Shown one piece after another: positions 5,486 through 38,628 of a stretch of DNA of 47,641 nt. The translations under genes and the position numbers were made by a program. Numbering within the stretch: position 1 is the first letter of the stretch; every line of letters begins with the position of its first letter. This stretch comes from Eggerthellales bacterium (GTDB lineage Bacteria > Actinomycetota > Coriobacteriia > Coriobacteriales > Eggerthellaceae), in contig JAQXQN010000151.1 in assembly GCA_029101185.1 (NCBI GenBank), positions 1 through 47,641 of the forward strand, in the 5' to 3' direction. A model generated the notes under the pieces. The model worked only from the letters and a program-made list of their open reading frames with translations, had not been told where the DNA came from and did not search any database.

Positions 5486-7042
5486 CTATTTACCCAGCTC
5501 GCCTGCGGCACGAACCCGGACGCGATTGGTGTGGCCCGGATAGTACTGCAGCGGCACATCCTCCACGTCGATGATCTCCACCGTCTCGCGCACAGCGCCA
5601 GCCTCCACGGCAAGCTCGATGGCGGCATTGCGGGCCTGATCAAGCGCCTCGTCACGAGGGGTCACGTCATAATCAATGAGAGCCTCGTAGGTGCCGGAGA
5701 CCTTAGAGATGGCAGACCCGATGGCGTTTGCGCAGCCGGAGAACTCGGGCTTGACGCAGATGGCGGTGCCCGCAAGGTCGGTGGGCACCACAATGGAGCC
5801 ACCGCCAACCAGAATGGCGTCAATGTCGTCGTTGGAGACCTTCATCATGTCGATGGAATCCTCCACCAGCTCCCGCATGACGGCCATGGCCGCTTCGGCA
5901 AACTCAAGAGGCATGTCTGCAACCTTTGAGGCATCGCCCACGTTGTCCACCATACCCAGGCGCACCGCAACGTCGGTGGCAGTGGTGACGTCGCCGCCAA
6001 AGACCAGGGCCTTCTCGGTGATGCGGAAGCCCACGGAGTCGGGGCCTACGGTGACGGTGCCGTCCTCATGCTGACGGACAATGGAGCCGCCGCCCAGGCC
6101 AATGGAGATCACGTCGGGCATACGGAAGTTGGTGCGCACGCCACCGATGGTCACGGCAACGCCGGACTCCCGAGGAAATCCGTTTGCCAGCACGCCCAGG
6201 TCAGTGGTGGTGCCTCCCACGTCAATGACAATAGCGTTGTCCATCTTGGACAGGTAGCTAGCACCGCGGATGGAGTTGGTGGGGCCGCAGGCAATGGTCA
6301 GGATGGGGTACTTGCGAGCGTACTCCATAGTCATCAGGGTGCCGTCGTTCTGGGACAGGTACACATCCGCGTTGACCACGCCCTTCTCCGCTAGGGACTT
6401 GGCAAATCCCTCGGTGAAGCGCTCCGCCACCTGATGGAGAGCGGCGTTGAGGATGGTGGCGTTCTCACGCTCGATCAGACCCATGGACCCAATCTCGGAG
6501 GACAGGGACAGACACACGTCCTCGCCAAGCACCTCGCGGGCAATCTTGGCGGCGGCAATCTCGTCGTCGTTGCGCACGGTGGAGAACACGCAGCTAATGG
6601 CCACGGATTGAACCTTGCCCTTCACGCTCTCAAAGAACTCCCGGGCCGCCTGTGCGTCAAACTCGCTGAGGCGCTGGCCGTCAAACTCGAATCCGCCGGG
6701 AATGATGGCATCGGCCACGCACACCGCGGCAATATCGTCCGCCCAGTCCACCATGGGAGGAATGCCCACAGAGGCAGGCGCGCCGATGCGCAGGATGGCA
6801 ATGGGGGCCAGGCCCTGGCGCTGCACGATAGCGTTGGTGCACTGGGTGGTGCCCAGCATGGCCTGCTTGATTTCGGCAGGGTTCACTTCGCCAGCAGAAA
6901 GCACGGCATCAATGGAGCCCATGATTCCAGAATAGATATCGTCAGAAGTGGGGTACTTCACCGCCGCGACAACGCTGAGGTCCTCGTCAATCAGTACGGC
7001 GTCGGTGTTGGTGCCGCCCACGTCAATGCCAAGTTTGTACAT
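5486..7042 (-). CDS. Hydantoinase/oxoprolinase family protein (HyuA-like)
   Basis: MYKLGIDVGGTNTDAVLID, AMLGTTQCTNAIVQR, AIVIDVGGTTTDLGVLANGFPRE, VISIGLGGGSIVR. Confidence 0.93.
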   Translation of the reverse strand: MYKLGIDVGGTNTDAVLIDEDLSVVAAVKYPTSDDIYSGIMGSIDAVLSAGEVNPAEIKQAMLGTTQCTNAIVQRQGLAPIAILRIGAPASVGIPPMVDWADDIAAVCVADAIIPGGFEFDGQRLSEFDAQAAREFFESVKGKVQSVAISCVFSTVRNDDEIAAAKIAREVLGEDVCLSLSSEIGSMGLIERENATILNAALHQVAERFTEGFAKSLAEKGVVNADVYLSQNDGTLMTMEYARKYPILTIACGPTNSIRGASYLSKMDNAIVIDVGGTTTDLGVLANGFPRESGVAVTIGGVRTNFRMPDVISIGLGGGSIVRQHEDGTVTVGPDSVGFRITEKALVFGGDVTTATDVAVRLGMVDNVGDASKVADMPLEFAEAAMAVMRELVEDSIDMMKVSNDDIDAILVGGGSIVVPTDLAGTAICVKPEFSGCANAIGSAISKVSGTYEALIDYDVTPRDEALDQARNAAIELAVEAGAVRETVEIIDVEDVPLQYYPGHTNRVRVRAAGELGK

Positions 7043-7177
7043 GTTGGTTCCTTTTCATCGCGGCCCTGGATGGGTGCGTCCAGGGCGGTTGCTTGAGTGG
7101 TTGAGAAGTCCGATCCCATCTGGAGGCCATGCCCCGAGGGACCGATGTGCACACCGCAGTGCACATGTAGGGCGACG

Positions 7178-15407: not shown

Positions 15408-16070
15408 TCAAGGCCAGCCGAAGCCCCCTACAACCAGCAAGGCAATGCACACGCCTATGCACAGACACGCAACCAGAGGAACCGTGCTGTCCTTTGTCAC
15501 AGATCCATGGCCCGAAAGAGCCGCCCATGCAGGCGTAATCAGGCAGGACGCACCCAGGGCCAGCAATGAGAACTCCAGGCCAAATCCGAGAGTGATTGCG
15601 CTGACCACCTTCAAATCCCCTCCCCCAAAGGATGCCCTTCCCGTTATCCGTTCAAAACAGATGCCTCCCACAAGCAGTGCGCCATATACCAGTAGCGCTT
15701 CTATGATCCTTTGCACCACAATCCATGCCCCGTTGTCGAAGGGTCCAAAAAGACAGATGCACAATGCCGCACCAGCCATGAGCGCCACGCTTTGGTGGGA
15801 CACCAGCCTAGAACGCATGTCCACCACAGCAGCAACCGCCAACAGGGCAACCAGAATCATTGAGGCCGTAGCGGACCACCCACCTGGGTCAGGGTCCAAA
15901 ACCATCAGGCACACAACGCCTCCAAGCAGTGCAGCGCACCCTGCAGTCACCCTGTCTGACGTCAGGGCACCACGGGCCCTATCCGCCCATTTCATGCACG
16001 GTCCAACCAGCCAGTAGGCAAAGGGGAACAGCGCCCCTACCCTGCACGCTTCGACAAGCATCACGCCCAT
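15408..16070 (-). CDS. Type IV prepilin peptidase (A24 family, CpaA/TadV-like); start uncertain
   Basis: VDMRSRLVSHQSVALMAG and FGGGDLKVVSAITLGFG aspartate motifs; multi-TM. Confidence 0.85.
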   Translation of the reverse strand: MGVMLVEACRVGALFPFAYWLVGPCMKWADRARGALTSDRVTAGCAALLGGVVCLMVLDPDPGGWSATASMILVALLAVAAVVDMRSRLVSHQSVALMAGAALCICLFGPFDNGAWIVVQRIIEALLVYGALLVGGICFERITGRASFGGGDLKVVSAITLGFGLEFSLLALGASCLITPAWAALSGHGSVTKDSTVPLVACLCIGVCIALLVVGGFGWP

Positions 16071-16355
16071 ATGCCGCCCCCTGCACCTTACTTGTGGCCA
16101 AACCCCCAACGTCCGTCTAATGAGAAGGCGCATTATACCCAGGTCACAGCCGAGTTTTGACCTGAACAAGGTCTCGGTTTGTCAACGGAAAATAATCGGA
16201 CAATGGGTTGGATTTCTGTTAGATTCCGTTTGGATTGCGCATACAAGAAGCAAGAAACGCGCCGGAATCCGACGCGTTTCTCTATAAGCGATATGTTCGC
16301 AGGCTATCTCAAACCTGCATTGCACCTAGGGCTGAAGCCCAAGCGAAGAGCGTGA

Positions 16356-21736: not shown

Positions 21737-22080
21737 AGCCGCCCCTCTCCCTCCGCGCTTCGCGGAATGCAAAACACCTGAAATCCCACGTCAAACCATG
21801 GGTCTGTCGAAGCGTACCGCTCAATTACCATCACGGATCCTTCCGCTGCACGCACTTTCCCAGACGCTAGGCCACGCTCTACAGCGCAAACCCTTCCTGT
21901 ACTATCAACAAAAGCCACATCAATGGACTGCCGCATCCCGAAGGTATGGATTGACCTGCAGGGCACAAGCACCACTCCCTTATACCCCGCAAGCCATCCG
22001 GCTTCCCGGCCGATCAGCCCCCGCAACCGAGACCCGAATCCCGTCAGCACCCGAAAGGCCATTGGTTCCACGTCTCTCAT
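21733..22080 (-). CDS. DUF192 domain-containing protein
   Basis: RLRGLIGREAGWLAGYKGVVLVPCRSIHTFGMRQSIDVAFVDSTGRV. Confidence 0.9.
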   Translation of the reverse strand: MRDVEPMAFRVLTGFGSRLRGLIGREAGWLAGYKGVVLVPCRSIHTFGMRQSIDVAFVDSTGRVCAVERGLASGKVRAAEGSVMVIERYASTDPWFDVGFQVFCIPRSAEGEGRL

Positions 22081-22487
22081 ATCACCACTCCTTTCCGGTA
22101 CGGGCTCACCGCAAAAGATGCCGAGTGGGTAAGTTCAGGCACATCCTGCCCAAACACCTCCACGCCCTGAAGCATCCCAGGCACATACCTCAGCGTGCCC
22201 GTAAACTGCACATGGCCCACGCCAATCACCTCCAGCTCCACCTCCAGGTCCTGCTCCCCATACCCCTCGTGCTCCACCAGCCACGCCTTCACCTGGGCAC
22301 AAGACGCTTCACCAAGATTAGGGTCATCCGCCTGCAACAAAACCGCGCTTCTTAGTGCAGTGTCGAAGCGCACGCACTCGCTCACGAACAGAAGTCCCCG
22401 TAATGCCACGAATCCGATGGCCAGCAGCACGGGTACAACTACGGCAAACTCCACCGTCATCTGACCCGCCCTATCATGGGTCACCAT
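22077..22487 (-). CDS. TadE/TadF-like pseudopilin
   Basis: RAGQMTVEFAVVVPVLLAIGFVALRGLLFV N-terminal TM with prepilin-like E; overlaps neighbours by a few nt. Confidence 0.75.
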   Translation of the reverse strand: MVTHDRAGQMTVEFAVVVPVLLAIGFVALRGLLFVSECVRFDTALRSAVLLQADDPNLGEASCAQVKAWLVEHEGYGEQDLEVELEVIGVGHVQFTGTLRYVPGMLQGVEVFGQDVPELTHSASFAVSPYRKGVVI

Positions 22488-24369
22488 CCTCCTGGGAGTA
22501 TTCCCCACCACCAAGCACCTCCTCTCCCTTTGCCGTGGCAATGGCGTCACACAACGGCCCATCCCCACGACCAACCACATGGGCGGTATTGATCACCACG
22601 GGCTTTGCGCTATCTGTGCGCGCGGGCTCAAGGCCGCAATCCTCAATCACCCCAGTCAGCCCCTCTCGGGCCCAAGACCCCAGTCCCGAAGCCCCCATCA
22701 GGGGCAATCCATCAAGAACGCCTCCCACGGCTGAAACTAGGCCGTCAACTCCTGAACCATAGGCGTGCAAAATCCCCGACCACAGCCCCAATGCACCATC
22801 CGTCAAGTCCGTGATAGGGGGTCCGACATCTGACGCCACCCCATCAAGCAACCCGGATATCACGTTATCGGAAGGATCCTCAACCAGGGTCGCGGCGGAA
22901 ATGGCGGCAAAGCTTCCCAGGTCAGACCCTGGTTCAAAAGCACCCGAAAAGCCTAAGGCCTGCTCTGGAGAGGATTCAAACCCCAACGCCACCACCGCCC
23001 CGTACCTGCCTGGGGGATACGCCACGATCCTGCAATTCACCACATCCTCAAGAGCACAGGCCAGCGCATCAAAGCACTCCTGAAGCAAGCCTCTGGCCTG
23101 GCGTAATGCAGGGGCAGCGGAGGCTTTTGCGGCGCAGTACGCTTCGGCATTCTCCGAGACCGCTCTGTAGTGATGCTCGAACCCATTGTCGATGGATGTC
23201 GATGCAGCAGCCACATTCCCAAGCACGGACGCGGACAATCCGCAGCTCTCGCATCGTTCGTACACGCCAGCGTCAAGCTGGGATACGGATCCATAACCCT
23301 CCACACCCCCTTCGGCACCCGGGCATTCCGCAAGGGTATGCAGCTTGCCGTCGGATACGGGATACACCCGTTGGGTGTACAGCGCTGTGGCCTTCATCTC
23401 CTGGGTGTTGCGGGGTAAGGTGGGCAGGTATATCTGCGGGACGTCCCCCCGCTCCTGTATGACGTAGCCATCCTGCAGCAGATCGCAGGCGTATTCGTAA
23501 TAGTGATATCGCAGCCGACTATCGCAGCGCTCCTCAAGACTGCCGCCTGAGATTCCCGCCTCCTGACTCATGCGCGCCCGATAGTACGCCCTGGCCCGAT
23601 CAAGGGCCATCTGAAATGACCACGTGGATATGGAGCTTGCCACGGGATTTTGCTCATCTGGAAGTCCCGCAAGGGCTTGGGCCCGCTGCGCGGCGCAAGC
23701 CCCGGGGTACCGTCCGCAGTCTGCCTCAAAGGCGGCTCGGTACGCTTCGTCCGCCTGTTGTGAAGCCTCTTGGGCAATCCTGCCCTGCTCCTGAATGTCG
23801 CTAGCAGAATCTTCCACAGTTTGAGCAGCGGATTCGCCGGTAGAAAGATCTCCGGAAAGAGACACCGATCCCGTGGTGGGGACCAGTTCGCACAACGCGA
23901 TGGCCTCGCCGTTGATAAACCCGGCGTTTTCCGATGCGATCAGCTGGGCCTGAGTCTGAGCAAGAGCAGGCAAGGCGGCACTGGCGGCAGAGAGCACTTC
24001 TATCTGGGTCTGGGCGTAATCATCCCGGGCATCAAGGACCTGCCTGCCCGCCTCGATCATCCGCTCTCCTATTGTAGAGGCCTGGGGCACACAGCAGCAC
24101 ACGGCCCCCACCCCAAGAAGACCCAAACCCGTCAAGGACATGGTTAACAGGGTGGCGTCTGCGACCCGCACTGCGATGACAAACTCCGCCACCTCGTTGG
24201 CTGCAGCAAGCGCAGCACTATCGGCAACGGATTGCACGCCCTGGGCCCTGCTCAGACTCCGGGCCGCCCACACGCCCCCGAAAATCAGCGCGCAGGAAAG
24301 CAGGATCGCGCAGGCCGCCCCAAGAGTGGTATACCCATCCCGGTTGCGAAATGACTCAACCCCTATCAC
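22474..24369 (-). CDS. TadG-like pilus-associated protein; start uncertain (GTG near 24369 proposed)
   Basis: RDGYTTLGAACAILLSCALIFGGVWAARSLSRAQGVQSVADSAALAAANEVAEF, typical TadG-like TM plus ADAAALAAA stretch. Confidence 0.7.
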   Translation of the reverse strand: MIGVESFRNRDGYTTLGAACAILLSCALIFGGVWAARSLSRAQGVQSVADSAALAAANEVAEFVIAVRVADATLLTMSLTGLGLLGVGAVCCCVPQASTIGERMIEAGRQVLDARDDYAQTQIEVLSAASAALPALAQTQAQLIASENAGFINGEAIALCELVPTTGSVSLSGDLSTGESAAQTVEDSASDIQEQGRIAQEASQQADEAYRAAFEADCGRYPGACAAQRAQALAGLPDEQNPVASSISTWSFQMALDRARAYYRARMSQEAGISGGSLEERCDSRLRYHYYEYACDLLQDGYVIQERGDVPQIYLPTLPRNTQEMKATALYTQRVYPVSDGKLHTLAECPGAEGGVEGYGSVSQLDAGVYERCESCGLSASVLGNVAAASTSIDNGFEHHYRAVSENAEAYCAAKASAAPALRQARGLLQECFDALACALEDVVNCRIVAYPPGRYGAVVALGFESSPEQALGFSGAFEPGSDLGSFAAISAATLVEDPSDNVISGLLDGVASDVGPPITDLTDGALGLWSGILHAYGSGVDGLVSAVGGVLDGLPLMGASGLGSWAREGLTGVIEDCGLEPARTDSAKPVVINTAHVVGRGDGPLCDAIATAKGEEVLGGGEYSQEDGDP

Positions 24370-24880: not shown

Positions 24881-25079
24881 GAACCCCCCAACTGAGCCGA
24901 TGGGTCAGGGATTCTAGAAAGCGCTGCTCAAAGCCCCCTTCGTCAAAAAAACCCGTCAGCGATGCAAGAGCAGCTCCCAGCGCAATCAAACCCACCAGCA
25001 CCAATGCGTATTCCACCGACCCCTGCCCCGACCGCGTGCCACAAGCAAGCCGAGGCAGGAGAACCGTCCAGGTGATCAC
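24861..25079 (-). CDS. Small Flp/TadE-like pilin candidate (GTG start overlapping the flp stop)
   Basis: GTRSGQGSVEYALVLVGLIALGAALASLTGFF; GTGA overlap at 25076-25079. Confidence 0.6.
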   Translation of the reverse strand: MITWTVLLPRLACGTRSGQGSVEYALVLVGLIALGAALASLTGFFDEGGFEQRFLESLTHRLSWGVLDVLSY

Positions 25080-25330
25080 AGGCCATTGATTCCCGTGGTG
25101 ATGGCCGTCCACAGCTCTTGAATCTTGTCCTTGAAGGCGGTCACCGCAACGATGGCAATGACCACAAGCACTCCTACGAGAATGGCGTACTCGGTAGTTC
25201 CCTGGCCCTTTCTACACGCAAGCCTGCTTCTTCCACGGGCACACACCCGCCAGATTGACGCGTTAATGCGGTTAATGTATCCCTGAACTCCTCTACCCAC
25301 TCGGGTACATCCCGCTTTAACCTGCTCCAT
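25076..25330 (-). CDS. flp: Flp family type IVb pilin
   Basis: RKGQGTTEYAILVGVLVVIAIVAVTAFKDKIQELWTAI. Confidence 0.88.
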   Translation of the reverse strand: MEQVKAGCTRVGRGVQGYINRINASIWRVCARGRSRLACRKGQGTTEYAILVGVLVVIAIVAVTAFKDKIQELWTAITTGINGL

Positions 25331-25452
25331 GACAACCTCCAATCCCGCGGCATACGCCGCCTGCCCTAGCGGTTGAGGCCACGCCTCTCCAGGCGGCCAC
25401 ATATCCGCATCCGTTCCTGCCGCCTCAGACGGCGTTATGCACACAGCCAGTG

Positions 25453-26088
25453 CTAGACAAATTCCAGCAGCACCGGCCCCATAACCAAAATCAGCATGGC
25501 GGGCAGAATCAACCCCGCCGTAGGCACCAGCATCTTCACCGGAGCCTTCGCCACCGCCTCCTCCATCCTGCTGCGGTACTCCCCCCGCGCCTGGGTCGCA
25601 AGCTCGTCAAGGGTCTGAGTCACAGGACTGCCATACTTGAGGCTACGCAGGACGTTTCCCACAAACTGGTGCAATATGGGCAGGTCAAAGCCGTCCGCCA
25701 ACAGTTTCAGCGCCTCGGCCCTGTCCACCAGGCCAGTCTCCCAGGACATCAGCGCCTCATGGCACCTTCGAGACAGCACATCGTCAAACCTTGTGCAGTA
25801 CAGTCCGAAGGCCCGATCAAAGGACAGCCCCGCACGCATCCCCAGGGCTACCGAGTCAATCATCTCCGCCACATGCACGTCCGCCTGGACCGAAGCCCGC
25901 TTGCGCGCTGCCGCTTCCCTTCGTCTGTCGAATCGTCCTGATCCGAATCCATTACCGCCCGTCCCCAAATACCCCGAGACAGCAGCCCGCGCCCGCCGGG
26001 TCCTGATTAGCCGAACCAAGTCCCCATAGGCAAAGGCGGCGGCAAAACCGCAGCACACCGAGGCCAACACCAGCCACACCATGACCAT
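25453..26088 (-). CDS. tadC: Type II secretion F family protein TadC
   Basis: Position after TadB-like gene; SVALGMRAGLSFDRAFGLYC and MLVPTAGLILPAMLILVMGPVLL. Confidence 0.85.
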   Translation of the reverse strand: MVMVWLVLASVCCGFAAAFAYGDLVRLIRTRRARAAVSGYLGTGGNGFGSGRFDRRREAAARKRASVQADVHVAEMIDSVALGMRAGLSFDRAFGLYCTRFDDVLSRRCHEALMSWETGLVDRAEALKLLADGFDLPILHQFVGNVLRSLKYGSPVTQTLDELATQARGEYRSRMEEAVAKAPVKMLVPTAGLILPAMLILVMGPVLLEFV

Positions 26089-26113: not shown

Positions 26114-27085
26114 CTAATTCAAAGCCAGGGTCTTACGCACCGCTAACACCCCAAGAACCTCCATACCCACCGCTACGCAAAACAGGGCAAATCCTCCGCC
26201 GCTCTGAAAGAAGGGGGACAGAAACCCAGGGCTTATCAGGGATAACGCCGCCATCAGCAAGATGGGCATAAGCGCCACAATCCGGGCCGAGAGCCGCGCC
26301 TGGGCGGTCTGCACCGCAAGGGACCGTTTGAGCTCTATCCCCCGGGATACGGACTCCTGGGCGCTTCTTAGCACAGGAGCCGCACTTCCTCCACACACGT
26401 ACACCACGTCAAGCGCCATGGCCACAAAGGCAAGCTCTGTAAATCCCGCCTGGTCATACAGGTGACGCAGTGACCTCTCCACGGAAAAGCCCATCTCCAA
26501 ATCATGGGTGACCTGTTCAAACACCCCTTTCACAGGCTTGGGGGAGTCCTGCGCCGTCTCCTTAAAAGCCTGGGGGATGGACAGACCCGCATGAAGGCAC
26601 GATTCCATGCACCGCAACGCATCGGGTATCTGCTCTCGAAGCGTCCGCTCCCTACGGTCAAGTTCCCGGGCGATCATCACCCTGCCAAGACCCAAAAGCG
26701 CCAGAGGTACAAACACGCACACCGCAACAGAGCCGGTGATCGCCATCAGCAGCACCACCAACGCCAGGCACAAACCAACTAGGCAGGAGGAGACTCCTAT
26801 CGCAGAGGCCTCAACTCCCGATTGGCGTAGTACCGCCACCGCCTTCTCAATCCCGCGGGAAAACCCCCTATTACGCAGCAGCCTTCGGGCAACTCCCGTG
26901 CACGCGGAAAACCCGTTTCGGGCCCAGTAACGCAGATACCCCTCGGGGCGAACCGATCCGCGATCGTCAAAGGACCTGACCACGCTTCGGGCACGAGACA
27001 CCTCCTCAGCCACCTCAGCGGCCGCAATGCCACCAGACACCCCGCCTGTCACGCAACCGAGCACAAGCCACAGGCCAACCGCCAT
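26114..27085 (-). CDS. tadB: Type II secretion F family protein TadB
   Basis: EQIPDALRCMESCLHAGLSIPQAFKE, VTHDLEMGFSVERSLRHL; GGGGGGAGGTG RBS before ATG at 27085. Confidence 0.88.
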   Translation of the reverse strand: MAVGLWLVLGCVTGGVSGGIAAAEVAEEVSRARSVVRSFDDRGSVRPEGYLRYWARNGFSACTGVARRLLRNRGFSRGIEKAVAVLRQSGVEASAIGVSSCLVGLCLALVVLLMAITGSVAVCVFVPLALLGLGRVMIARELDRRERTLREQIPDALRCMESCLHAGLSIPQAFKETAQDSPKPVKGVFEQVTHDLEMGFSVERSLRHLYDQAGFTELAFVAMALDVVYVCGGSAAPVLRSAQESVSRGIELKRSLAVQTAQARLSARIVALMPILLMAALSLISPGFLSPFFQSGGGFALFCVAVGMEVLGVLAVRKTLALN

Positions 27086-28377
27086 CGCTGCACCTCCCCC
27101 CGATCGATCAGCCCCGATTGCACCGCCTCTTCTATCCAGGGCGGTTCGCCATGCCACACCCCTTGCTCAGCGGGGCTGCGCCGCTCATACAGAGCACGTA
27201 CCTCGCAACCCCCGTCAGATCCCTTCTCCACCTGGGCCAGCCCGCTCACAAACCGCTTGCCGTTCCTATGCCGAGCAACCTGAACCACCACGTCAAGGGC
27301 GCTTGCGATGATGTCCTCTATGACGTCAACCGGCAGATCCGAACCAAACCGCACCATGGCCACAAGCCTGTTCACCATGTCCTGGGGAGAATTTGCATGC
27401 AGGGTGGTCAAGGATCCCTCGTGTCCCGTATTCATGGCTTGAAGCATGTCAAGGGCCTCCGCACCTCGGCACTCCCCTACGATGATTCTATCTGGACGCA
27501 TGCGCAGGGAGTTTCGTACCAAATCGCGTATGGACACTTCACCAACCCCCTCCGCATTCGGCACCCGAGCCTCAAGGCTCACCACATGAGGATGCTCGTC
27601 AAAGCGCAGTTCGGCGGAGTCCTCTATAGTCACAATCCGCTCCCCGTGGTCAATGACCGAGGACAAGGCGTTGAGCAGGGTGGTCTTCCCGCTACCCGTG
27701 CCCCCACAGACCGCGGCGTTTTTCCTGCAAAGCACCATCCACTCAAGCAGAGACTTAATCGCCTGATCCATAGACCCCGCCTGGCGCATCTCTTCAAGGG
27801 TGATCACGTGTCGGGAAAACTTCCGGATGGTGAGCACTGGACCCGCCGCGGAGATTGGGGGCACCACCACGTTGACTCGAAATCCATTGGCAAGTCGGGC
27901 GTCCACCATAGGCGACGACTCGTCTACCCGCCGGCCTAGGGGAGCTATGATTCTATCCACGATTGCCCGCAGCTGCTCGTTTGAGTAGAAAAGGGCATCG
28001 TGCCTGTTGAGTACGCCACCCCGCTCCACATAAATAGAATCCGTAGCGTTGACCATGATTTCGGTAATCTCGTCGTCCTCCACTAAATCCTGCAACGGGC
28101 CAAGGCCAAACACCGAGTCTTCCAACTGATTCAGCAGACGACTACGCACATCGGCAGACCTATACGCCCAGGAAGATGAGGCAAAACACTGCTGAGCCGC
28201 CTGCCTGAGTTCGCTGCGGGCACGCTTTGGATTGGTAAACGCCATAGCCGACAGAGAAGCCGGCGGAATAATCCGACCGACCCCCTCCTTCAGCTCTTCA
28301 AGCAACTGCGCCTCCTGGGTCAAGGAGCTCGCGCTGGTCCGGGATTCCGCAGCGGCAACCCTCTGTGCAAGCGTCAT
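27049..28377 (-). CDS. tadA: Tad/CpaF family secretion ATPase
   Basis: [22 protein letters not shown] Walker [39 protein letters not shown]. Confidence 0.96.
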
Positions 28378-29672
28378 GCCCCCGACCCCCTCAGTTTCCT
28401 GCCAAATCGTTTTCTTGTCGAAGCGTCCTGGCCGCTGCCGCCCCCTTGTATGGCCCGGGCCTTCGGCTCAGGGGCAACAGTGGCCAATAGGTCCCGCACC
28501 CCCTCTACCGCCTCGTTCTTGTCCCCAAAAAGCTCCCTAATTAGCCCCGCAGACGCCAGTTCCTCCACATCCCTGCCGCCATCAGGCACTTCACGGACGT
28601 TGCTGACGCGAATAGCGCAGGAAACATCCAAAGCGGACAGAAGGCTTGACTTAGTCTGCCTGTTCAGCGCGAAGCAGAAGCCATTGGTGGCGGCGCCAAG
28701 CCGCGCGCAGAGGTCCATGGCCCTGATGGTGGCATGCATGGAAGACACCCGGGGCGCCACCACCATCACCACCTGATCGCTTCGCTCGAGAAGCACCGCC
28801 TGCACATCCGACCACATGCATCCCGTATTCACCAGCACCACGTCAAACCTGCCCCGAAGGGCATCAACCACATCTCCGACGCCCTCCGCGATTTCCTCGG
28901 ACTGCTCTATCCGAAGTGGTGCCGCAAGCACCGCAGGTTCAGTTCCGGAGGCTGGCGGCTCAAGCATCCCAAGCCGTCCGGGAGACCCCGCCACTTCATC
29001 AATCCGCAGGGCGGATTCCGTTCCAAGCAAACGCTGCATGTCGCCAAACTGCAGATCCGCGTCAACCACCGCGGTCCGAAGACCCGCTTGTGTGCAAATC
29101 AAAGCCGCAATTGCACACAGGGTTGACTTGCCGCTGCCTCCACTGCCGGACATGAAGCTGACCACGAACCCCGAAGACGCCTCCGCCCCTGTAGCCTGAG
29201 ACACCAGCGCACCTACAGAAGAACGCCCATCGGTTGCCCCAAGGGCTCCCACCTGGGACGCTTCGCCATGATGTCGCGCCACGGCTCTTTCATGAAGCGT
29301 CGCCTGATCACGCAGGGCTGCTGCAAGTTTCGGGGTGCTCCATATGTCATCAATGGAGGCGGCGTGGGCCCGGCTTGCCAAGGACCCGCTTTGCTCATTA
29401 CTGATAAGCACTGTGTATGCAAAGGGGTTGTCCTTTTTCAGAGCGGCAGCAAGATTGATCCCTTCCATGTCGCTGCAGGAAACCACCCAGATTTGCTTGA
29501 TTCCAGGGGCCTGGGCGGCAAGGTTTCGGCATCCGAGTGCGGTGCTTTCGCAGGCAAGCCACTCCCAGGATCCCAGATCAATATGGTCAAGCCCCATCAG
29601 TCCAGGGTTGCGCAGGCTCTCCTCATCCGCACAGAGCATGATGTCCCAGGACTGGGTTGTCTCCTGAATCAC
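28374..29672 (-). CDS. CpaE/TadZ-like AAA ATPase
   Basis: SFMSGSGGSGKSTLCAIAALICTQAGLRTAVVDADLQFGDMQRLLG deviant Walker A. Confidence 0.88.
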   Translation of the reverse strand: MIQETTQSWDIMLCADEESLRNPGLMGLDHIDLGSWEWLACESTALGCRNLAAQAPGIKQIWVVSCSDMEGINLAAALKKDNPFAYTVLISNEQSGSLASRAHAASIDDIWSTPKLAAALRDQATLHERAVARHHGEASQVGALGATDGRSSVGALVSQATGAEASSGFVVSFMSGSGGSGKSTLCAIAALICTQAGLRTAVVDADLQFGDMQRLLGTESALRIDEVAGSPGRLGMLEPPASGTEPAVLAAPLRIEQSEEIAEGVGDVVDALRGRFDVVLVNTGCMWSDVQAVLLERSDQVVMVVAPRVSSMHATIRAMDLCARLGAATNGFCFALNRQTKSSLLSALDVSCAIRVSNVREVPDGGRDVEELASAGLIRELFGDKNEAVEGVRDLLATVAPEPKARAIQGGGSGQDASTRKRFGRKLRGSGA

Positions 29673-30388
29673 GGCCTACCTCCCTCACTCAAAGCATCCG
29701 CCGTTGTGTCTTCTTCGTTTTCAGCGACCCTCAACTGGGCAATTGTGTGTGCGGTCCCCCGGACATCCTCCGAAGGAAGGGAAAAGTACAGAGTGGAGGT
29801 TTGGGATGCCCCGATAACCTCCTCAATTCGGGTGGGGTCAAGAGCAAGAGTTATCCAGTTGATCTCGCTCGACTCCTCATCCGCGCTTGTTGCCAGGACC
29901 AGCACATCGGCAACAAGCAGATCCGTACCCAGACTTGAGGTGGCATACACATCCACGTAGCTACCCTTTACCACGCCGCCCCCAACCGCATTGACCGCCT
30001 TCGCAGAAACGCTGAGGGCGCAGAGCCCTTCGGGGACCTGGATTGCCACAGTCCCGCTGCTGACGAAATGATCGTCTAAGACAATCTGACCTTTAAAGAT
30101 GGGACATGCCACCACGCTTTCAAAGACCTGCGTGTCATCTACCGCATCATCTGGAACCAAGGCACCTGGCCAAATCTGCTTCTCGCACAAGGCAAGACTC
30201 ATGTATTCGCCAACCGCTACATCCCTTGTTGCCACATACACTTCCACCTGGTCGGAGCCAAACCGCTCAAGAATCTGGCTCTGCTGCTGCTCTATCTCAG
30301 ACTTGACCGACCCGCCGTACGCAGCCAGGCACACTGCGCACAGCGCACCGCAAGCCACCCCAAACAGGGCATTTCTTCTCCCGGCCAT
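29669..30388 (-). CDS. SAF-domain pilus assembly protein (CpaB/RcpC-like)
   Basis: VEVYVATRDVAVGEYMSLALCEKQIWPGALVPDDAV; first gene of the tad operon. Confidence 0.82.
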   Translation of the reverse strand: MAGRRNALFGVACGALCAVCLAAYGGSVKSEIEQQQSQILERFGSDQVEVYVATRDVAVGEYMSLALCEKQIWPGALVPDDAVDDTQVFESVVACPIFKGQIVLDDHFVSSGTVAIQVPEGLCALSVSAKAVNAVGGGVVKGSYVDVYATSSLGTDLLVADVLVLATSADEESSEINWITLALDPTRIEEVIGASQTSTLYFSLPSEDVRGTAHTIAQLRVAENEEDTTADALSEGGRP

Positions 30389-30487: not shown

Positions 30488-30523
30488 ACCACCTTGAAAG
30501 AGGCAAGAACAAATGCTGCCAGG

Positions 30524-30665
30524 CCAATCCTTCAATTTAATGAGCGGTATCTGGGCGGTTCCTTACGCTGGATGCTTCGCCAATTCCACCGCCGCTCGTC
30601 CAAGCCCAATCAGGCTTTTCATCACATTCCATCAGGAATCAAACATCCTCGCCCAGCTTTCTAAC
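30524..30665 (-). promoter_or_regulatory. Conserved upstream element copy A (upstream of tad operon)
   Basis: ccaatccTTCAATTtaATGAgcggTATCTGggCgGTTCCTTACgCTGG matches copy B at 38345-38467. Confidence 0.6.
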
Positions 30666-30967
30666 GCTCCTTTCCCTTACCTCCACCCGTTTCCAACAAA
30701 AGCTCCTGGGTTTCTTTCGCCAATCCATCACGATCGCACGCCCCCTCTTTCGGCTTGCCTGCTTTGCACCCCAACACACAACGAGCCCCGACGGCAATCG
30801 CCATCGGGGCTCGCATCTCGTTTTTCATCCCGCCTTGCTCCACACCTCGCGCAAGACTCCACACCACAGCATCGGCTCTAGCACCCGTGCCAGGGCGATT
30901 CGCCCCCTTGCCGGGCTGAAACCTCCGTATCAGACGACCACCTCAGCATCAGACGGCCATCTCCGTA

Positions 30968-33900
30968 TCAGACAACCTCCTCGAAAACCTCCTCATGAGG
31001 CCCGCCGTTTACCTCCACGGACTTCCACAGCCTGACAATCTCCTCCTCAATGGCCGGGGCGTCTGACGCGTTGAACACGAATTCCACGGTCTCAGGTTCT
31101 CCAGGATGTGCCGGATCGGATTGCTCGACTCGCACAAACGTGGATCTGACCTGGGAAAATCCCTCTCTAATCAGCGCCAGGGCATAGCATCGGGCTTGAA
31201 GGCCGTGCTTGAGACGCAGCCTCTCCTGACCCTCCCCCGCATTACCGCCGGTCTTGTAATCAATCAGGTACGCCACCTCCGGCCCGTCAAAGGCAAGCCC
31301 GTCAATCTCCCCCTCCAGGAAGAACTCCCCGGTACCGCATGAAACAGGCAGGAAGAAGGGAACCTCCGCCTGCAGACAATCATGGGCGGCAAAGCGTGCG
31401 GCGCATTGGCTGGAAAACCACCTGTCCAAAGCGCTGCGCAGGCTCGCCGTTTGCAGAGAGTCAAACATGCACTCCCTCACCAAAGAGGACACCCTCTCAT
31501 CCGAAGGCCTTATCAAATGCGACGCTTCGGCGGCAGCGGCTCGTTCGATAGCCTCCTGGGCAAGCAGATGGAAGGCGGATCCTAAATCCGTCGCGGGGTT
31601 CCCTTCGGATCTCTCCATGTCATCCAAGGCGTTTGCGGCGTCCCGGTTCTTCTTGGACCTCCTGCGCATGTCCGCATAGGAGCACGGGTCATCCTTCCAG
31701 GCAAATCCAGGCAAGTCCTCATGGGGCAGAGTAGTGTAAGACACCACGCCCTCACGCTGGCGCATTCTCCCTGTCAACCTCACCCGCGGCCAGTGGGTCT
31801 CAGGGGGCTGTGGGGTAGAAGGAATCAAGAAGTCCTCCTGCTTCTCGGGCTCCTGGGGGACCCAATCCTCCTTGCGCACCTCTCGGGTTTTCACCAGCGC
31901 AGGGGCACAGGCCCCGAAGTCCACCATCTGATGGGCCTCACAACTAATATCCCACTTCAAGGCATTATGCATGTCTCCTAGCACGCCCATGCCCTCATAT
32001 CCCTTCTTCGTCAACTTATGGGGCAGGGCAACATACAAAGACCTGCTTGCCCTGGTCAGGGCCACATACAACAGGCGCTGGGCCTCCTGGCGCTCCTGTT
32101 CCTCAGTCCGCGCCTTCAGGGCGGCAAGAAACTCCGCAGGGGATTGCTGGTTAAAGGTGGGCTCATGCTCTTCCAGCTCAGATGCGATCTGAATCAGATC
32201 ATTACGCCGTTCTCGCTGCTCCCGTTTCAAAGGGGCCTCGCAGGCAAACAAGCACGTTTCGCCAACATTTTCCGCATACAGGGACATGCTGCCCACGTCC
32301 CCCAGCCGAAGCTCGCTGATTGCCACATGGGGAAACTCCAGCCCCTTTGAGGCGTGCACCGTCATGATCCTCACGTAATCCGAAGTTGGGGTGGACAGGG
32401 CCCCGGGCCTATCCTTGGAAAGGACCAGCATGCGGGCAAAACGCTTACTGGCCTGAGCGAGCCCGGCGCCGTCAGCCTCAAGCTCCTCCACATACCGCAA
32501 GGCCTTGAGCACATTGCCTGCCTTAAACAGGCCGTCCGTGCCACCCCGCTCGAGCCTGAGCATCCAGCCAGATTCCACGCAGACGTAGTGCAATGCGCTG
32601 GTAAGCCCCTGGCTTCTCGCGCATGAAAGGGAATCCTTGAGCACCCGACAGGTAAAGAGCAGGTCATCCCGTTGGGCCTGGGTCATTTCGCCAATTCCCT
32701 CACCCCAGGTGGCAACAAGGGTGCGAGCAAGGCCCCGCCGCTTGGGGGCCTCGTCGTCCTTGAGACGAGTCTTCCCGCCAAGGGCAAGCAGAGCATCATC
32801 ACTGCAGTTGAAAATCTCGGAGGCAAGCACCTGGTACAGGGCCTCGTCGTCATAGGGGTTGGCAATCCATCTTCCCAGGTAGGCAAGGGTCTGAACCTCA
32901 GGCTGCTTGCCAAACACGGAGCCGCCCACAATCAGGCTCTCGAAACCCTGCTCCTGCAGGGCCCGAGCATACATGTCCGCGTGGGACATGGCGCCAAGCA
33001 GGACCACCATGTCACCAGGCTTGACCCCCTTGTTTCTCAGGGCGGCAAACCGCTCGGCGATACCTTGGGCCGCGCAACCCCGAGCCGCCTCCATAGACCC
33101 GCCCCGAACAGGGGTGCCCACCACGTCAAAGACGATACGGGGCATCTCGTCAAAAACGGGATCCGACTCCTTGTTCACATCCCCCTTTGGCTCAAGGTGC
33201 AAAAACCGCGACCCAAACACCTGGGGCATGGCGAAGATCCTATCCACCAGCTGCAGCACGTGGGCATGACTCCTGAAATTATCCGGGAGTTCAATCAACC
33301 GCGTCTGAGGGTTGGTCTGGCACATCTGATCCCTGAAGTCAAAGAACACGTTCACATCCGCGCCCCGGAACCGATAAATGCTTTGCTGGGCGTCCCCCAC
33401 CGTGCAGATATTTGAGCCATCAGGAGCGGCAAGCCGGCTGATAATGTCGCATTGCAGCTTGTCGGTGTCCTGGAACTCATCCACCATGATCAGCTTGAAC
33501 TTGTCCTGATAGGACCGGGCGATTTCCGGGTGGGCTCGCAGCGCCTGGTAGGTCATGACCAGCAGGTCATTCTGATCCACCCTATCCGGCCCTTTCAGCT
33601 GAACAAGGATGTCCTTAAATGCCCTGGCGAAAGCGACCAAGCCCTCCTGTCTCACATAGGCGCAACAGGCCCCCGCCTCGGCGGCAACCTGGGCATACGT
33701 ACATAGGTACTCCTGGAAGAAACTTCCATAGACACTTGACGCCTTGTAATTGCGGGCCACCTTAGGATAGGAGAACACCGCGTCCAGGTATGTGACCGCG
33801 TCAAAGTCCTCCCCGGCAAAATCATCCTGACCCTCCAGCTCCATATAGAGCCGAGTTTTCTCAAGAGCCTGGTCAAGGGCAAGCTGGTGTTTCTCATCGG

Positions 33901-34588
33901 TGGCAGTAGGCTTAGACCAGTCCGCAGCGATGGATGAAAACTCGCGACCCTTCTGATACAGGTCCATAAGCAGGACCTTGGGGCTTTTGGTCGGATGGGC
34001 GCACACTAAGGCGTCAAACCCACCGGGCATGGTCTCAACCCTGCTCATGAGCACGCTTGCCTGGTCAAGTACCCCCGTATTTGACCTGCCCTTTGAGTAC
34101 AGCGGCGTCTCATCCACGAGCCTCTGGGCGGGATAGCCCAGATCCCCGTTACGGGCAAGCTCGAAGGCGGCCTCCGCGGCAAGGCCCCACAGGTCATCCG
34201 CATCAATGTCGGAGAGCAGCTCAAAGGCTGGGTCCACCCCGATCTCAAGGGCGTGCTCCTTGAGTATCCGCGAACACATCCCGTGAATGGTGGAGATCCA
34301 GGCGTCATCCACCTTCAGGGCCTCTTGGGCCAGACCCTCCTTCAGAAGCAGGGACTTGATGCGGCTTTTCAGCTCCGCTGCGGCCTTTCGGGTAAACGTG
34401 ATGGCCAACACCTGATCAACGCTTTCAAGGGCAGCAGGGCTCCCATCCGGACCAGGAAGCAAGGCGGCGGCAATGCGCTGGGTCAGGGTAAACGTCTTTC
34501 CCGATCCGGCCCCAGCGGCAACCATCAGGGGTTTGTCAAGGGTGGTCACAATCTCCCGTTGAAACGGGGTGCATCGGTCTAGGTTCAT
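30968..34588 (-). CDS. UvrD-like helicase/exonuclease, AddA-type
   Basis: FQREIVTTLDKPLMVAAGAGSGKTFTLTQRIA, LIMVDEFQDTDKLQCDIISRL, C-terminal EGEIDGLAFDGPEVAYLIDYKTG nuclease motif; perfect AGGAGG RBS. Confidence 0.93.
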   Translation of the reverse strand: MNLDRCTPFQREIVTTLDKPLMVAAGAGSGKTFTLTQRIAAALLPGPDGSPAALESVDQVLAITFTRKAAAELKSRIKSLLLKEGLAQEALKVDDAWISTIHGMCSRILKEHALEIGVDPAFELLSDIDADDLWGLAAEAAFELARNGDLGYPAQRLVDETPLYSKGRSNTGVLDQASVLMSRVETMPGGFDALVCAHPTKSPKVLLMDLYQKGREFSSIAADWSKPTATDEKHQLALDQALEKTRLYMELEGQDDFAGEDFDAVTYLDAVFSYPKVARNYKASSVYGSFFQEYLCTYAQVAAEAGACCAYVRQEGLVAFARAFKDILVQLKGPDRVDQNDLLVMTYQALRAHPEIARSYQDKFKLIMVDEFQDTDKLQCDIISRLAAPDGSNICTVGDAQQSIYRFRGADVNVFFDFRDQMCQTNPQTRLIELPDNFRSHAHVLQLVDRIFAMPQVFGSRFLHLEPKGDVNKESDPVFDEMPRIVFDVVGTPVRGGSMEAARGCAAQGIAERFAALRNKGVKPGDMVVLLGAMSHADMYARALQEQGFESLIVGGSVFGKQPEVQTLAYLGRWIANPYDDEALYQVLASEIFNCSDDALLALGGKTRLKDDEAPKRRGLARTLVATWGEGIGEMTQAQRDDLLFTCRVLKDSLSCARSQGLTSALHYVCVESGWMLRLERGGTDGLFKAGNVLKALRYVEELEADGAGLAQASKRFARMLVLSKDRPGALSTPTSDYVRIMTVHASKGLEFPHVAISELRLGDVGSMSLYAENVGETCLFACEAPLKREQRERRNDLIQIASELEEHEPTFNQQSPAEFLAALKARTEEQERQEAQRLLYVALTRASRSLYVALPHKLTKKGYEGMGVLGDMHNALKWDISCEAHQMVDFGACAPALVKTREVRKEDWVPQEPEKQEDFLIPSTPQPPETHWPRVRLTGRMRQREGVVSYTTLPHEDLPGFAWKDDPCSYADMRRRSKKNRDAANALDDMERSEGNPATDLGSAFHLLAQEAIERAAAAEASHLIRPSDERVSSLVRECMFDSLQTASLRSALDRWFSSQCAARFAAHDCLQAEVPFFLPVSCGTGEFFLEGEIDGLAFDGPEVAYLIDYKTGGNAGEGQERLRLKHGLQARCYALALIREGFSQVRSTFVRVEQSDPAHPGEPETVEFVFNASDAPAIEEEIVRLWKSVEVNGGPHEEVFEEVV

Positions 34589-37503
34589 GCGTTCCTCCTG
34601 GGGCAGTTGGGGACAACGCAGTAGGTGCATTGATCCGCGTCCTTTGGCCGGGGCGAGATATCCCCCTCCTGCATCCGTTTCACCACGGGAACAAGGGCCT
34701 GCTCCAAATCGGACAGGAACGCCTCAAAATCCATCCCCACCACGGATTTCTGGTCTATCGCCTGAGGCATGGCCTTCTTGACCTCCATGTCAAAGGACCC
34801 TGCCAAGGCGTCTTTAACATCTTGAGCCTGGTAATTCAAATAGGCCGCCGCGGCAGGAGTTCCGTATCCAAGCCTCTGGGCGCAAACGGCGTACAGCAGC
34901 GCCTGGACCTTTCCGGGCAGCACCATTCGCCATTCCTCAATCGGAGCAGCAGGCTCATCTCCCTCCTGGTCATCAGCGTATTCGGAGAAAACCTCCACCT
35001 GCTGATATGCCCCCTCAGAACCCGCATGCCGGCCCTTCAGGCTTCCCTTATAGTCCACTATGGCGAAGCGTCCTGACACGGGATCCACGTCAATACGGTC
35101 AATCTTTCCCACCAGACAGGCCCCCGCAAAGACCACCCCGTCTTGAGGCTCCACCACTCGCTCGAGACCCTGCACCTCCATGCCCGCAAACAGCTCCGCC
35201 TGGACCGCCAGATTCTGCAGCAGGGTGTCTCGGAGCAGCTCTGCGTCGCGCTGCTCGGAGTTGGTCACCGGAATGTATCCCCCCGCCTGCTGCTCAAGCA
35301 TCAGATCCTCAAACACGTCTTCCAGAATCTCCTGGGCCTGGTCAAGGTTGTCCGGAGTCACTCGCATGCAGCCATCTTCCCTGAGCAGGGAGTACGTGCG
35401 TTCAAAAACGGCATGCACGAACTCTCCCCGTTCAATGGGGCCCATCTGGGCGTCCATGGATCCAGGATTAAGTTTGCGCTCCACAAACCACTTGTACGGA
35501 CAGGAGATGTACCCCTCAATCTGGGATGGACTCAACACCGGATAGGTCACGCCATCAACCTCAACATAGGAAAGCAAATCCGCATCTCTGGCACAGCGCA
35601 GGATTCCCGGCTCCGAAGCGGCCACCTTTTTGGGACGGCAGGACTGACCCGCGTTTGCAGCAAGCTGCTCCTCTCCCACCTGAGGGCCCATCCCGCATCT
35701 GAGCAGGTCGGGAATTCCCAAGGGCGCCTTCTGCCCGTCCTCTTCGTCAACCCGATAGGCGTTAAGAAACTCATCCAGGAAAAACGAGGCGTAGGAGTCC
35801 TCTCCATCCGGGTCCTTTGCAGGAACCACGATGTCAAGAGAGCCCTTGGCCGCAAGCACGGCGGTCTGGAGCATGAGCCGGTAGTCTTTTAGCACGTCGC
35901 GCTCAAAGGCCACGCCAAGCTTCTCCGACAGGGTGTCCATGGCGGTATGCTCCACCGAAGCGGGAAAGCTCTCCGCGGTCAACTCAGTTAGAATCACGTG
36001 GTCTACGCTGCCCTGGTCAATGAAGAGATTCTTATCAAGGCGCACGAACTCCACGTCAATCTCGGCTTCCCGCTCCACGCACTCCCCGTACACGATGAGG
36101 GTTTCCGTGGCGAATATGAACTGCTCGGGAGACAAGGCGTATTCCCGCGTTGAATCGTATAGGTCTCTTAAAGCCTGGATTGCGCTCAGCTCCACCGACA
36201 TCTTCATCGGATCATGACGATACGCCCTACGGGCGAGGTCCGCAAAAAACCCGCATCCGATTCCCGCGTCAGGGTCCTCAAAGAACTGCTCAAAGTACTC
36301 CATGTTGGGGGACTGCTCCCGCAGGATGGGAAGCAGCCTGCCCGGATCTTTCTGGATGGTCCTGTCCGACCTGATCATCCGATCCAGGTATAAGGCTTCT
36401 GATTGGGACATGCCCGAATATGGCGAAGCGGCATAATCCGCCACCGCCTCAAGGGTGCCTGGAAGCGGACCCGTGCAGATTTTCCTTGCTGCAGAAAACA
36501 CCTTTCCGAAATCCGTCAGCTTAAACTCCGTCCGAAAGGAGGTGGCCGCATGAATACCCAGATTCTGCAGGTCAAGGGCCATCCGCCGATACAGCCCCAT
36601 AGGATCTGGGCTTAGCACCATGACGGAAGCCTGGCCTGCTGCGTATCCGGCCACCAAGTCCCGCACCACCCGGGCAAGAGCGGAAGGCCCTGCGGGCAGC
36701 TCAACGGACACCCGAACCCCTGCTTCAGGGGCCCCGATCCTGGGCATGGGATAGGCAATCTCTTTCAAACGCACCCGTTCAGAGGATAGAAATTCCCTCA
36801 TCGCAGGAGAAAGGCTATGGGCTCCCGCGAGCACCACCGTTGTTTCGGGCATCTGGGCAGCAATGCGCATTAGGGCATGACCTGGTTCAATAAGCCCGTA
36901 CTGGTCAAGGGCGGCATAATAGAGCCCCGCTACCTTGAGCACCTCCAACTCTGCGGGGGCAAGGCGGTCCGCGACCAATTCAGGATTATCCACCGCGGCC
37001 TGGAAAACCCGATTTCCGCTTACCCGCTCAAGATACGCCGCAATCATCAGCGCTGTCCCCGGGCTTGCCGCCAACACGTCCTGATCCGCCAGGATCTGGT
37101 TTACCAGCAGGTCCCTTTTGCCCCTATCCACCAGGATGCGCCCGTCACCCCATACGGCCCATAAATCCCGAGTCCATTGGGACGGGGTAAGGAAATGAGC
37201 ATTCATCATGGAAGGAACCTCACGGGCAATCCGAGACCCCAGCCACCGAACCCCCCGAGTATCCATAGGGACAGGAAATTTTCCCTGGAAACCCCCGGCC
37301 ATCCGACAATCAGCGTCCGCGGCGTCCGCCTCCCATGGCGAAGCGCCCCGTACATCTGCACTCCATGGCGAAGCGCCCTGAGCATCAGCCCCCTGTGCAT
37401 CAAAACCGGCACGGGACTTCAACATGGTCACAAGTTTTCGCTGGTAAAACGCCTGCTGCGGTGTGGGAAGCAACACGACGACTCTCTGTGAAAGCATGAG
37501 CAC
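34585..37503 (-). CDS. AddB-type helicase-nuclease subunit (PD-(D/E)XK nuclease)
   Basis: LSPSQIEGYISCPYKWFVERKLNPG, LVGKIDRIDVDPVSGRFAIVDYKGS, C-terminal CTYCVVPNCPRRNA cysteines; overlaps the AddA start by 4 nt. Confidence 0.85.
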   Translation of the reverse strand: MLMLSQRVVVLLPTPQQAFYQRKLVTMLKSRAGFDAQGADAQGASPWSADVRGASPWEADAADADCRMAGGFQGKFPVPMDTRGVRWLGSRIAREVPSMMNAHFLTPSQWTRDLWAVWGDGRILVDRGKRDLLVNQILADQDVLAASPGTALMIAAYLERVSGNRVFQAAVDNPELVADRLAPAELEVLKVAGLYYAALDQYGLIEPGHALMRIAAQMPETTVVLAGAHSLSPAMREFLSSERVRLKEIAYPMPRIGAPEAGVRVSVELPAGPSALARVVRDLVAGYAAGQASVMVLSPDPMGLYRRMALDLQNLGIHAATSFRTEFKLTDFGKVFSAARKICTGPLPGTLEAVADYAASPYSGMSQSEALYLDRMIRSDRTIQKDPGRLLPILREQSPNMEYFEQFFEDPDAGIGCGFFADLARRAYRHDPMKMSVELSAIQALRDLYDSTREYALSPEQFIFATETLIVYGECVEREAEIDVEFVRLDKNLFIDQGSVDHVILTELTAESFPASVEHTAMDTLSEKLGVAFERDVLKDYRLMLQTAVLAAKGSLDIVVPAKDPDGEDSYASFFLDEFLNAYRVDEEDGQKAPLGIPDLLRCGMGPQVGEEQLAANAGQSCRPKKVAASEPGILRCARDADLLSYVEVDGVTYPVLSPSQIEGYISCPYKWFVERKLNPGSMDAQMGPIERGEFVHAVFERTYSLLREDGCMRVTPDNLDQAQEILEDVFEDLMLEQQAGGYIPVTNSEQRDAELLRDTLLQNLAVQAELFAGMEVQGLERVVEPQDGVVFAGACLVGKIDRIDVDPVSGRFAIVDYKGSLKGRHAGSEGAYQQVEVFSEYADDQEGDEPAAPIEEWRMVLPGKVQALLYAVCAQRLGYGTPAAAAYLNYQAQDVKDALAGSFDMEVKKAMPQAIDQKSVVGMDFEAFLSDLEQALVPVVKRMQEGDISPRPKDADQCTYCVVPNCPRRNA
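37331..37390. repeat. 30-bp tandem repeat with catggcgaagcgccc, encoding GASPWSADVR/GASPWEADAA in the AddB N-terminus
   Basis: Direct reading: CGAAGCGC at 37339 and 37369, 30 bp apart. Confidence 0.8.
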
Positions 37504-37686
37504 CTCTCATCTCTGATTATTTCGCACCATTATAGATGTAGGTTCATCGGGCACGAGGGGCACAAATGGGACAGTCGGTACTCAGGCATTCCAGATCCGC
37601 CATTCGTGGTTTTTCCATCACAAGACGGCCTTTGTCGCCTCCGCCCCGAGGTTCCAACCGCCCATTTGTGGCACAATTCCACCCAC

Positions 37687-37762
37687 GGGCGATTGGCGCA
37701 GTTGGTAGCGCAGGTGCCTTACAAGCACAAGGTCGGGGGTTCGAGTCCCTCATCGCCCACCA
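37687..37762 (+). tRNA. tRNA-Val (anticodon UAC), CCA encoded
   Basis: GGGCGAT acceptor pairs ATCGCCC; anticodon loop CTTACAA; GGTTCGAGTCC T-arm; ACCA end. Confidence 0.93.
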
Positions 37763-37848
37763 TCTTTTTTCCTCACGGCGCGTTTAATCGCCGGCCATTC
37801 ACCCTCAATACTATTCAACCTGCCAGCATGCGGTCTGCGGTTCCCGCA

Positions 37849-38295
37849 TCATCCGACCTGCTTCTTCGGCCGTCCGGGACCTGGATGCGTGGCCTTGCGT
37901 TTACGCACACTTGCAAGGGTGACCCAGCTTTTCCTTCCCTCCCGATACCCCTCAAGCTGATGGCTCTTGATCATCTGGGACACCCGACAGGACGTCACCC
38001 CAAGCATCCTGGCTGCCTCCGCGGCGCGGACCACAGACCCCGCCTCATCATAATTAGAGGAATCCACGTATCCTACGCAGACTCTTCCCTTTCTATGGGG
38101 CATGTTGGCAATGCTTCCACGGGGCATAGGCCTGCCCTCCATCGCATACCGTCGCACCAGATCTGTTAGCCATTCCTCAAAGGCGCCCACACAATCCACC
38201 TGAAGGGGTATCACCAGCGCCTCATCAAAGTCGCAAGGGAACAGTACCTGGTGAAATCCCAGTTCACACACTTCAAATTCGTAGCGCCACAACAC
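37849..38295 (-). CDS. HTH (excisionase/MerR-like) domain protein, GTG start
   Basis: SVVRAAEAARMLGVTSCRVSQMIKSHQLEGYREGRKSWVTLASVRKRKA. Confidence 0.75.
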   Translation of the reverse strand: MLWRYEFEVCELGFHQVLFPCDFDEALVIPLQVDCVGAFEEWLTDLVRRYAMEGRPMPRGSIANMPHRKGRVCVGYVDSSNYDEAGSVVRAAEAARMLGVTSCRVSQMIKSHQLEGYREGRKSWVTLASVRKRKATHPGPGRPKKQVG

Positions 38296-38344
38296 CTTTG
38301 GCCCCTTTCTCCCGAAACACCATCTGGGAGCAACGATAGGGGTT

Positions 38345-38467
38345 CAACCTTTCAATTCCATGACGCGTATCTGCACCGTTCCTTACACTGGCTTCGGGCA
38401 GGATTCATCAGGAGTCAGACTCAATTCTAATTAACTTTTGTCCCGATCCTTTCAGGAAGCTTTCTAA
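38345..38467 (-). promoter_or_regulatory. Conserved upstream element copy B (upstream of HTH gene)
   Basis: TTCAATTccATGAcgcgTATCTGcaCcGTTCCTTACaCTGG. Confidence 0.6.
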
Positions 38468-38628
38468 AAATCCTCCAAACCTGTCAGAAATCTCTTCAAA
38501 TCATTGGGTTTTTCCCTGATTAGTCCTGAAAAGCTTTACGGAATCCATCAAGAATTCCCGTCCCGTGCTAGGATTTTTCCCAGGACCTTTCGCCAGCCCC
38601 CACCTTTTCCATCACAAAGTGAGCATCC

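Follow-up and report, generated by a model that had tools for sequence, protein, structure and literature searches.

A repeated promoter element built on 11-bp direct repeats probably marks a DNA-uptake regulon in an Eggerthellales bacterium

How DNA uptake is switched on in high-GC Gram-positive bacteria is an open question. Even for the model species Micrococcus luteus, a member of the Actinomycetota, a publication of 2026 still called the upstream control of competence unidentified (PMC12849477), and in the literature on competence control in Coriobacteria and Actinobacteria no motif such as the one described here was found. The closest described site architectures come from other regulators. 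The Streptomyces regulator PhoP of the OmpR family binds 11-nt direct repeat units arranged as a core with weaker ancillary units (PMC7866108), and BldC, Xis, and Apl bind cooperatively to a variable number of direct repeats spaced about one turn apart (PMC5859096; PMC7498355). In Haemophilus, one competence-induced toxin-antitoxin operon, toxTA, is known (PMC6957337).

The DNA analyzed here, referred to as the window, is a contig of 47,641 nucleotides from an Eggerthellales bacterium (JAQXQN010000151.1), in which the initial annotation had noticed two similar noncoding blocks, one before the first gene of a tad pilus operon and one before a gene for a helix-turn-helix (HTH) protein. Both blocks lie where it had placed them, and a repeat search of the window returned them as a pair of 47 nt with 77% identity (30525-30571 and 38345-38391). 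Since such a pair alone could arise by chance in a window of about 47 kb, the genome-wide search was decisive. The 19-mer GTAAGGAACNGNNCAGATA had three exact matches in the 1.96-Mb genome compared to about 0.001 expected by our own arithmetic, two of the three being the window copies from which it was derived. Six more genomic matches were found with up to two mismatches, with none for the reversed control, and four of these six extended into the full element. Sites L006 and L009, located inside coding sequence and without extension into the element, were rejected as decoys. Seven copies of the element aligned without gaps over 54 bp. The sequence-only profile built from them recovered all seven together with three held-out copies (E = 1.9e-7, 5.9e-6, and 4.7e-5), and no 11th match up to an E value of 10 was obtained among the 150 of 342 first-look candidates that were scored. 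The genome search for the element, which the initial annotation had proposed as a check, thus gave ten copies.

On the minus strand, the tad core element GTAAGGAACCGCCCAGATACCGCTCATTAAATTGAAGGATTGGCCTGGCAGCAT occupies positions 30513..30566 (profile, 58 bits, E = 1.1e-15; alignment) and includes the -10-like hexamer CAGCAT (30513-30518); degenerate 11-bp repeats, in phase with the core as judged from phase-locking and lag excess, extend upstream of it over 30567..30709. The genes behind it on the same strand are cpaB/rcpC, the first of the tad genes (29669..30388; PF16976, and TIGR03177 above cut-off), a cpaE-like ATPase gene (28374..29672; TIGR03815, E = 1.2e-18, below its cut-off), the cpaF/tadA ATPase gene (27049..28377; PF00437), the T2SSF genes tadB (26114..27157; PF00482) and tadC (25453..26088; PF00482), a probable pilin gene with a class III signal peptide (25076..25444; PF04021, E = 1.1e-4, just below cut-off), and a TadE-like pseudopilin gene (22077..22580; PF07811, E = 1.6e-4, just below cut-off). 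The second core element, also on the minus strand (38333..38386; profile match 38334-38386, 49.5 bits, E = 5.1e-13), has the -10-like hexamer TATCGT (38333-38338) and degenerate 11-bp repeats at 38387..38529 (periodicity, phase-locking). It lies upstream of the HTH gene, a minus-strand hicB-like gene of 148 aa (37849..38295; domain searches, family profile), and of this gene only. A tRNA-Val(TAC) gene called by ARAGORN on the plus strand (37687..37762) separates the hicB-like gene from addB, and a joint operon of the HTH gene with addBA was therefore ruled out. The AddA/AddB-like helicase-nuclease pair (30968-37503) is located between the two elements and carries no element; addB appears to have a TATAAT promoter of its own.

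Read toward the gene, the consensus of the element is GTAAGGAACcGncCAGATAcCGCTCAT-nn-AaTTGAAAGgTTG-nCC-N3-YAnnnT, in which the terminal hexamer YAnnnT is -10-like, with A50 and T54 invariant in all seven aligned copies. No -35-like hexamer was seen by eye at 17 bp, and sigma-54 and ECF promoter readings were dropped by eye because their spacings do not fit. Degenerate direct repeats of 11 bp form an array that has the 54-bp element at its 3' end and stays phase-locked to the core for at least 140 bp upstream. Over the 143 bp above the core at the 10 sites, the information in the 11-bp register was 0.84, compared to a mean of 0.25 and a maximum of 0.65 in the permutation control, where 0 of 2000 permutations reached the observed value. 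In ten 200-bp promoter ends, the excess of matches at lags 11, 22, and 33 gave z values of 2.4, 4.9, and 3.1 relative to a Markov null. Outside the 54-bp core the repeats are weak in the source genome, and low periodicity scores at single promoters carry little weight; within the window, no 160-bp stretch has a higher 11-bp periodicity than the one above the HTH gene. Two further short matches between the window copies had been pointed out in the initial annotation. Between the copies, the position of ATCAGGAnTCAnAC shifts by 44 bp, or 4 x 11, and so fits a phased array; AGCTTTCTAA, with a shift of 17 bp, probably reflects coincidence or loose array sequence.

The second-highest 11-bp periodicity in the window was observed at 16100-16290, before the gene for a type IV prepilin peptidase (15408-16169, PF01478), where units like ATCCAAACGGA occur and the promoter has a TATAAT; this stretch may be a diverged array or a coincidence. 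The imperfect 16-17-bp tandem repeats at 4440-4550 (CACGTTTAGTCAACGCG) are unrelated to the 11-bp arrays.

Six of the ten copies precede operons for DNA uptake, pili, or recombination, namely, the tad operon of the window with cpaB as its first gene, yraN-comM-dprA, comEA-comEC-holA, rpsF-ssb-rpsR-rplI-dnaB, comF, and recA-recX. The copies before comEA and recA were held-out matches, and the third held-out copy precedes a paralogue of a known target. A common cis element is therefore present before comEA/comEC, comF, the dprA operon, ssb, and recA, as expected of a competence regulon. Against a purely competence-related set stand the non-classical targets: the hicB-like gene of the window, the L023 operon encoding an isopeptide-domain surface protein, a SipW-type signal peptidase, and a SipW-dependent matrix protein, and the paralogues L024 and L027 without assigned function (28% identical, E = 2e-40). 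As the targets are mostly uptake operons, the element appears to mark a regulon for DNA uptake rather than to link only two genes. The shared promoter or operator and the co-regulation proposed in the initial annotation are well supported by the sequence, whereas a duplication private to the pilus and HTH genes gives way to a regulon of at least ten promoters; the element does not stand before many unrelated genes, most of its ten targets being functionally linked.

The L024 and L027 proteins (L024:2232-3389 and L027:334-1272), both encoded behind the element, had no family match. By eye, their C-terminal part contains an EYxSxxH...DxxRR-like motif that recalls small endonucleases, and N-termini like theirs (SALxxW) occur divergently beside the arrays L156, L164, and L171 of the relative G014. 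In the recA promoter (L026, about 6892-7100), two palindromic GAACAnnTGTTC-like boxes located downstream of the element overlap a TATAAT, which by eye suggests a separate SOS-type promoter.

The profile had no convincing match in 60 relatives, which lack the exact element, and a search for the exact element in 84,980 GTDB genomes gave four matches in unrelated phyla, at about chance level. An element specific to the species, as first suggested by the profile result, was overturned by direct reading of the upstream regions of relatives. At yraN and comEA, many of them have a final unit such as GGCAAGGTTT, followed by six bases and TAnnnT, and arrays of 11-bp units precede these final units. Orthologous operons in relatives carry 11-bp arrays with species-specific units, and such conservation of the architecture at orthologous genes with diverged units is expected of a competence regulon. 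In 29 promoters of relatives, the mean z value was 4.2 at period 11, compared to at most 1.2 at periods 8-10 and 12-14. The core spacing CAT-N15-N6-TAnnnT appears alike by eye in the promoters of the source genome and G014.

A pattern of three units GCTKGAWNCNN had 90 matches in G014, corresponding to about 20 arrays, and 17 matches in G018, some of them single and possibly due to chance (e.g., L179); there were none in G000, G008, and the reversed controls. Every multi-hit array holds a single register, and in G014, where up to about 10 consecutive units match, the 135 distinct units give GCT(G/T)GATTC(G/C)C. Identity at lag 11 at G/C positions in G014 was 0.77, compared to 0.42-0.59 at control lags, and this conservation of bases beyond their A/T or G/C class points to recognition by a protein. 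Other families of the order carry arrays with different units (G052, G038, and perhaps G056). In G052, the very regular array L255, about 800 bp upstream of comM, consists of at least 10 units such as GTCGGGCAATC / GTCAGGCAGCG and shows a 22-bp alternation. Little array was present at comEA in some relatives of the same genus (G001, G004, G006, and G009), G019 had no array at comEA or yraN, and in G013 neither comEA nor comM was found.

Genes in relatives were called by ORF reading and Pfam. The targets of the arrays in G014 are comEA-comEC, yraN-comM, tad, recA-recX, rpsF-ssb, and a gene resembling comF. Arrays there also precede the gene for a DUF559 protein, the gene for an NAD(P)H-hydrate dehydratase with a ligA-like gene after it, and a topoisomerase gene located behind a toxin-antitoxin pair. 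Seven arrays (L153, L154, L161, L162, L163, L165, and L170) have a toxin-antitoxin module or an antitoxin gene directly behind them, namely, a Gp49/HigB-type toxin with its antidote (three cases), AbiEi/AbiEii, BrnT with a CopG-type antitoxin, a RelB-type gene, and an RHH antitoxin. The toxin and antitoxin genes behind arrays in relatives are apparent members of the regulon. The genes behind the G014 arrays L155 and L156 are doubtful, and the long, well-formed array L164 (G014:C1:1735270-1735377) is followed by no obvious gene in its orientation. L181 and L182 (G018:C52:132262 and 146150) share near-identical downstream sequence on one contig with no clear gene, and the L182 array is cut by the contig end.

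The HTH protein of the window joins a HicB-like N terminus to a C-terminal DNA-binding domain, as is typical of the HicB family. The latter is a winged HTH of the Rv2175c/excisionase type (Pfam, E = 5.6e-5, below the curated cut-off), and a profile of 20 homologues matched the solved HicB chains 6u0i, 6hpb, and 5yrz. Reading of the ORFs and the gap beside the gene revealed no hicA, so that the gene is an orphan, a member of the family and not a toxin-antitoxin system. Homologues have a patchy distribution (26 of 61 genomes), most of those in relatives follow an apparent HicA toxin by eye, and no common element was found in their upstream regions.

The genome carries ten copies of this promoter, two of them in the window, and they probably switch on its DNA-uptake genes. 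It is likely that they belong to a competence regulon whose activator would occupy the one-turn direct repeats cooperatively and so substitute for a -35 hexamer. What was read from the DNA itself is the set of ten sites with their targets, the 11-bp phase, the conservation of the spacing, and the like architecture in relatives; activation by the sites, cooperative head-to-tail binding, and competence as the output are what we infer. The putative activator would bind an array whose direct repeats follow one another every 11 bp, equal to one helical turn, so that adjacent monomers would line up head to tail on a single face of the helix and bind cooperatively. The final repeat would take the place of the -35 hexamer at a fixed distance from the YAnnnT hexamer, and the activator would thereby recruit RNA polymerase in its stead; unidirectional one-turn repeats at a fixed distance from the -10 hexamer fit such a protein. 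Once active, the regulator would turn on together the Tad pilus, which would catch DNA, and the uptake proteins ComEA, ComEC, and ComF, would raise the single-stranded DNA handlers DprA, SSB, RecA, and ComM, and in relatives would co-activate toxin-antitoxin modules. A bolder version, in which an activator of a new kind serves competence across the order, polymerizes head to tail on 11-bp arrays whose unit drifts by species, and has drawn in many toxin-antitoxin modules, is rather doubtful.

The nature of the activator was considered against the regulators encoded in the genome. An OmpR/PhoB-family response regulator acting on 11-nt direct repeat units would be a specific form of the competence regulon and is a serious candidate, at somewhat less than an even chance. 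The site logic is that of PhoP, with a core and ancillary units and direct repeats spaced 11 nt as in OmpR/PhoP-type sites, and only five OmpR-type regulators are present in the genome. One of the five, C105 (L184), the best candidate by first inspection, was tested by distribution and rejected as a universal regulator, being absent from the array-bearing G038 and G056 and having an identical recognition helix region in four genomes whose repeat units differ (G000, G005, G008, and G014). A search with PF12728 revealed no small BldC-like winged HTH protein in the genome, the only match being a HicB paralogue, and a protein of this type as the activator therefore has no support. The same result lends some weight to the HTH protein of the window, which the initial annotation had proposed as controller of the pilus and of its own gene: it has one of the ten elements, and its Rv2175c/excisionase winged HTH belongs to the fold class of Xis, Apl, and BldC, which bind one-turn direct repeats head to tail. 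Control by this protein is nevertheless improbable. Its homologues are patchily distributed HicB antitoxins, mostly behind HicA-like toxins, no homologue was detected at E = 1e-5 in the close relatives G010 and G018, which have strong arrays, and antitoxins and toxins of relatives, including those of G014, lie behind arrays as apparent cargo. The strong arrays without a homologue point to a member of the regulon rather than its controller, and the protein is most likely an orphan HicB antitoxin within the regulon; a regulatory role in the source species, including autoregulation, is possible but not needed.

Arrays that are intrinsically curved or UP-like and aid RNA polymerase with no dedicated activator would account for the helically phased A/T-rich steps in some units (GATTTC, GGAAAC), but this is very improbable, as the lag-11 conservation in G014 exceeds an A/T class pattern, the units of G016 and G052 are G/C-rich, and the units are unidirectional. 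That the two window copies arose by chance or by duplication with a mobile element can practically be dismissed. Although the window has other two-copy repeats of like length and identity, the ten copies, seven of them aligned without a gap, all lie upstream of genes and mostly before one functional group, no repeat boundaries or signs of a transposon were seen, and the profile matches and 11-bp phase-locking refute such an origin.

With a competence regulon as the preferred reading, the sequence signature predicts a whole regulon in a lineage for which no report of a competence signal was found, indicates which operons should rise together, and provides a defined DNA bait for the activator. 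With toxin-antitoxin modules behind the arrays, it can also be tested whether toxins linked to competence occur generally or are an oddity of Haemophilus.

In comparison to known systems, the HTH protein family matches solved HicB structures and hicAB-like pairs occur in relatives, whereas here, in contrast to a typical HicB, no HicA toxin gene is adjacent and a competence-type promoter would drive the gene. The BldC unit is 9 bp, AATTxxxxC, compared to 11 bp in the arrays described here, and the role described for Apl is that of a repressor at phage promoters, whereas an activator is proposed here. The sites also differ from those of PhoP in sequence, in targets, and in the greater length of the arrays, with up to about 10 consecutive matching units in G014. 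In the ComK system of Bacillus, the ComX cin-box system of streptococci, and the CRP-S/Sxy system of Haemophilus, one signal likewise stands over comEA/comEC, comF, dprA, ssb, recA, and pilus genes. To our knowledge, the sequences of the ComK boxes, the ComX cin-box, and the CRP-S/Sxy sites bear no resemblance to the element. Toxin-antitoxin cargo is also present in Haemophilus (toxTA, PMC6957337). Different from these competence systems, a single regulon here appears to combine a Tad pilus and several toxin-antitoxin modules with an array of 11-bp direct repeats.
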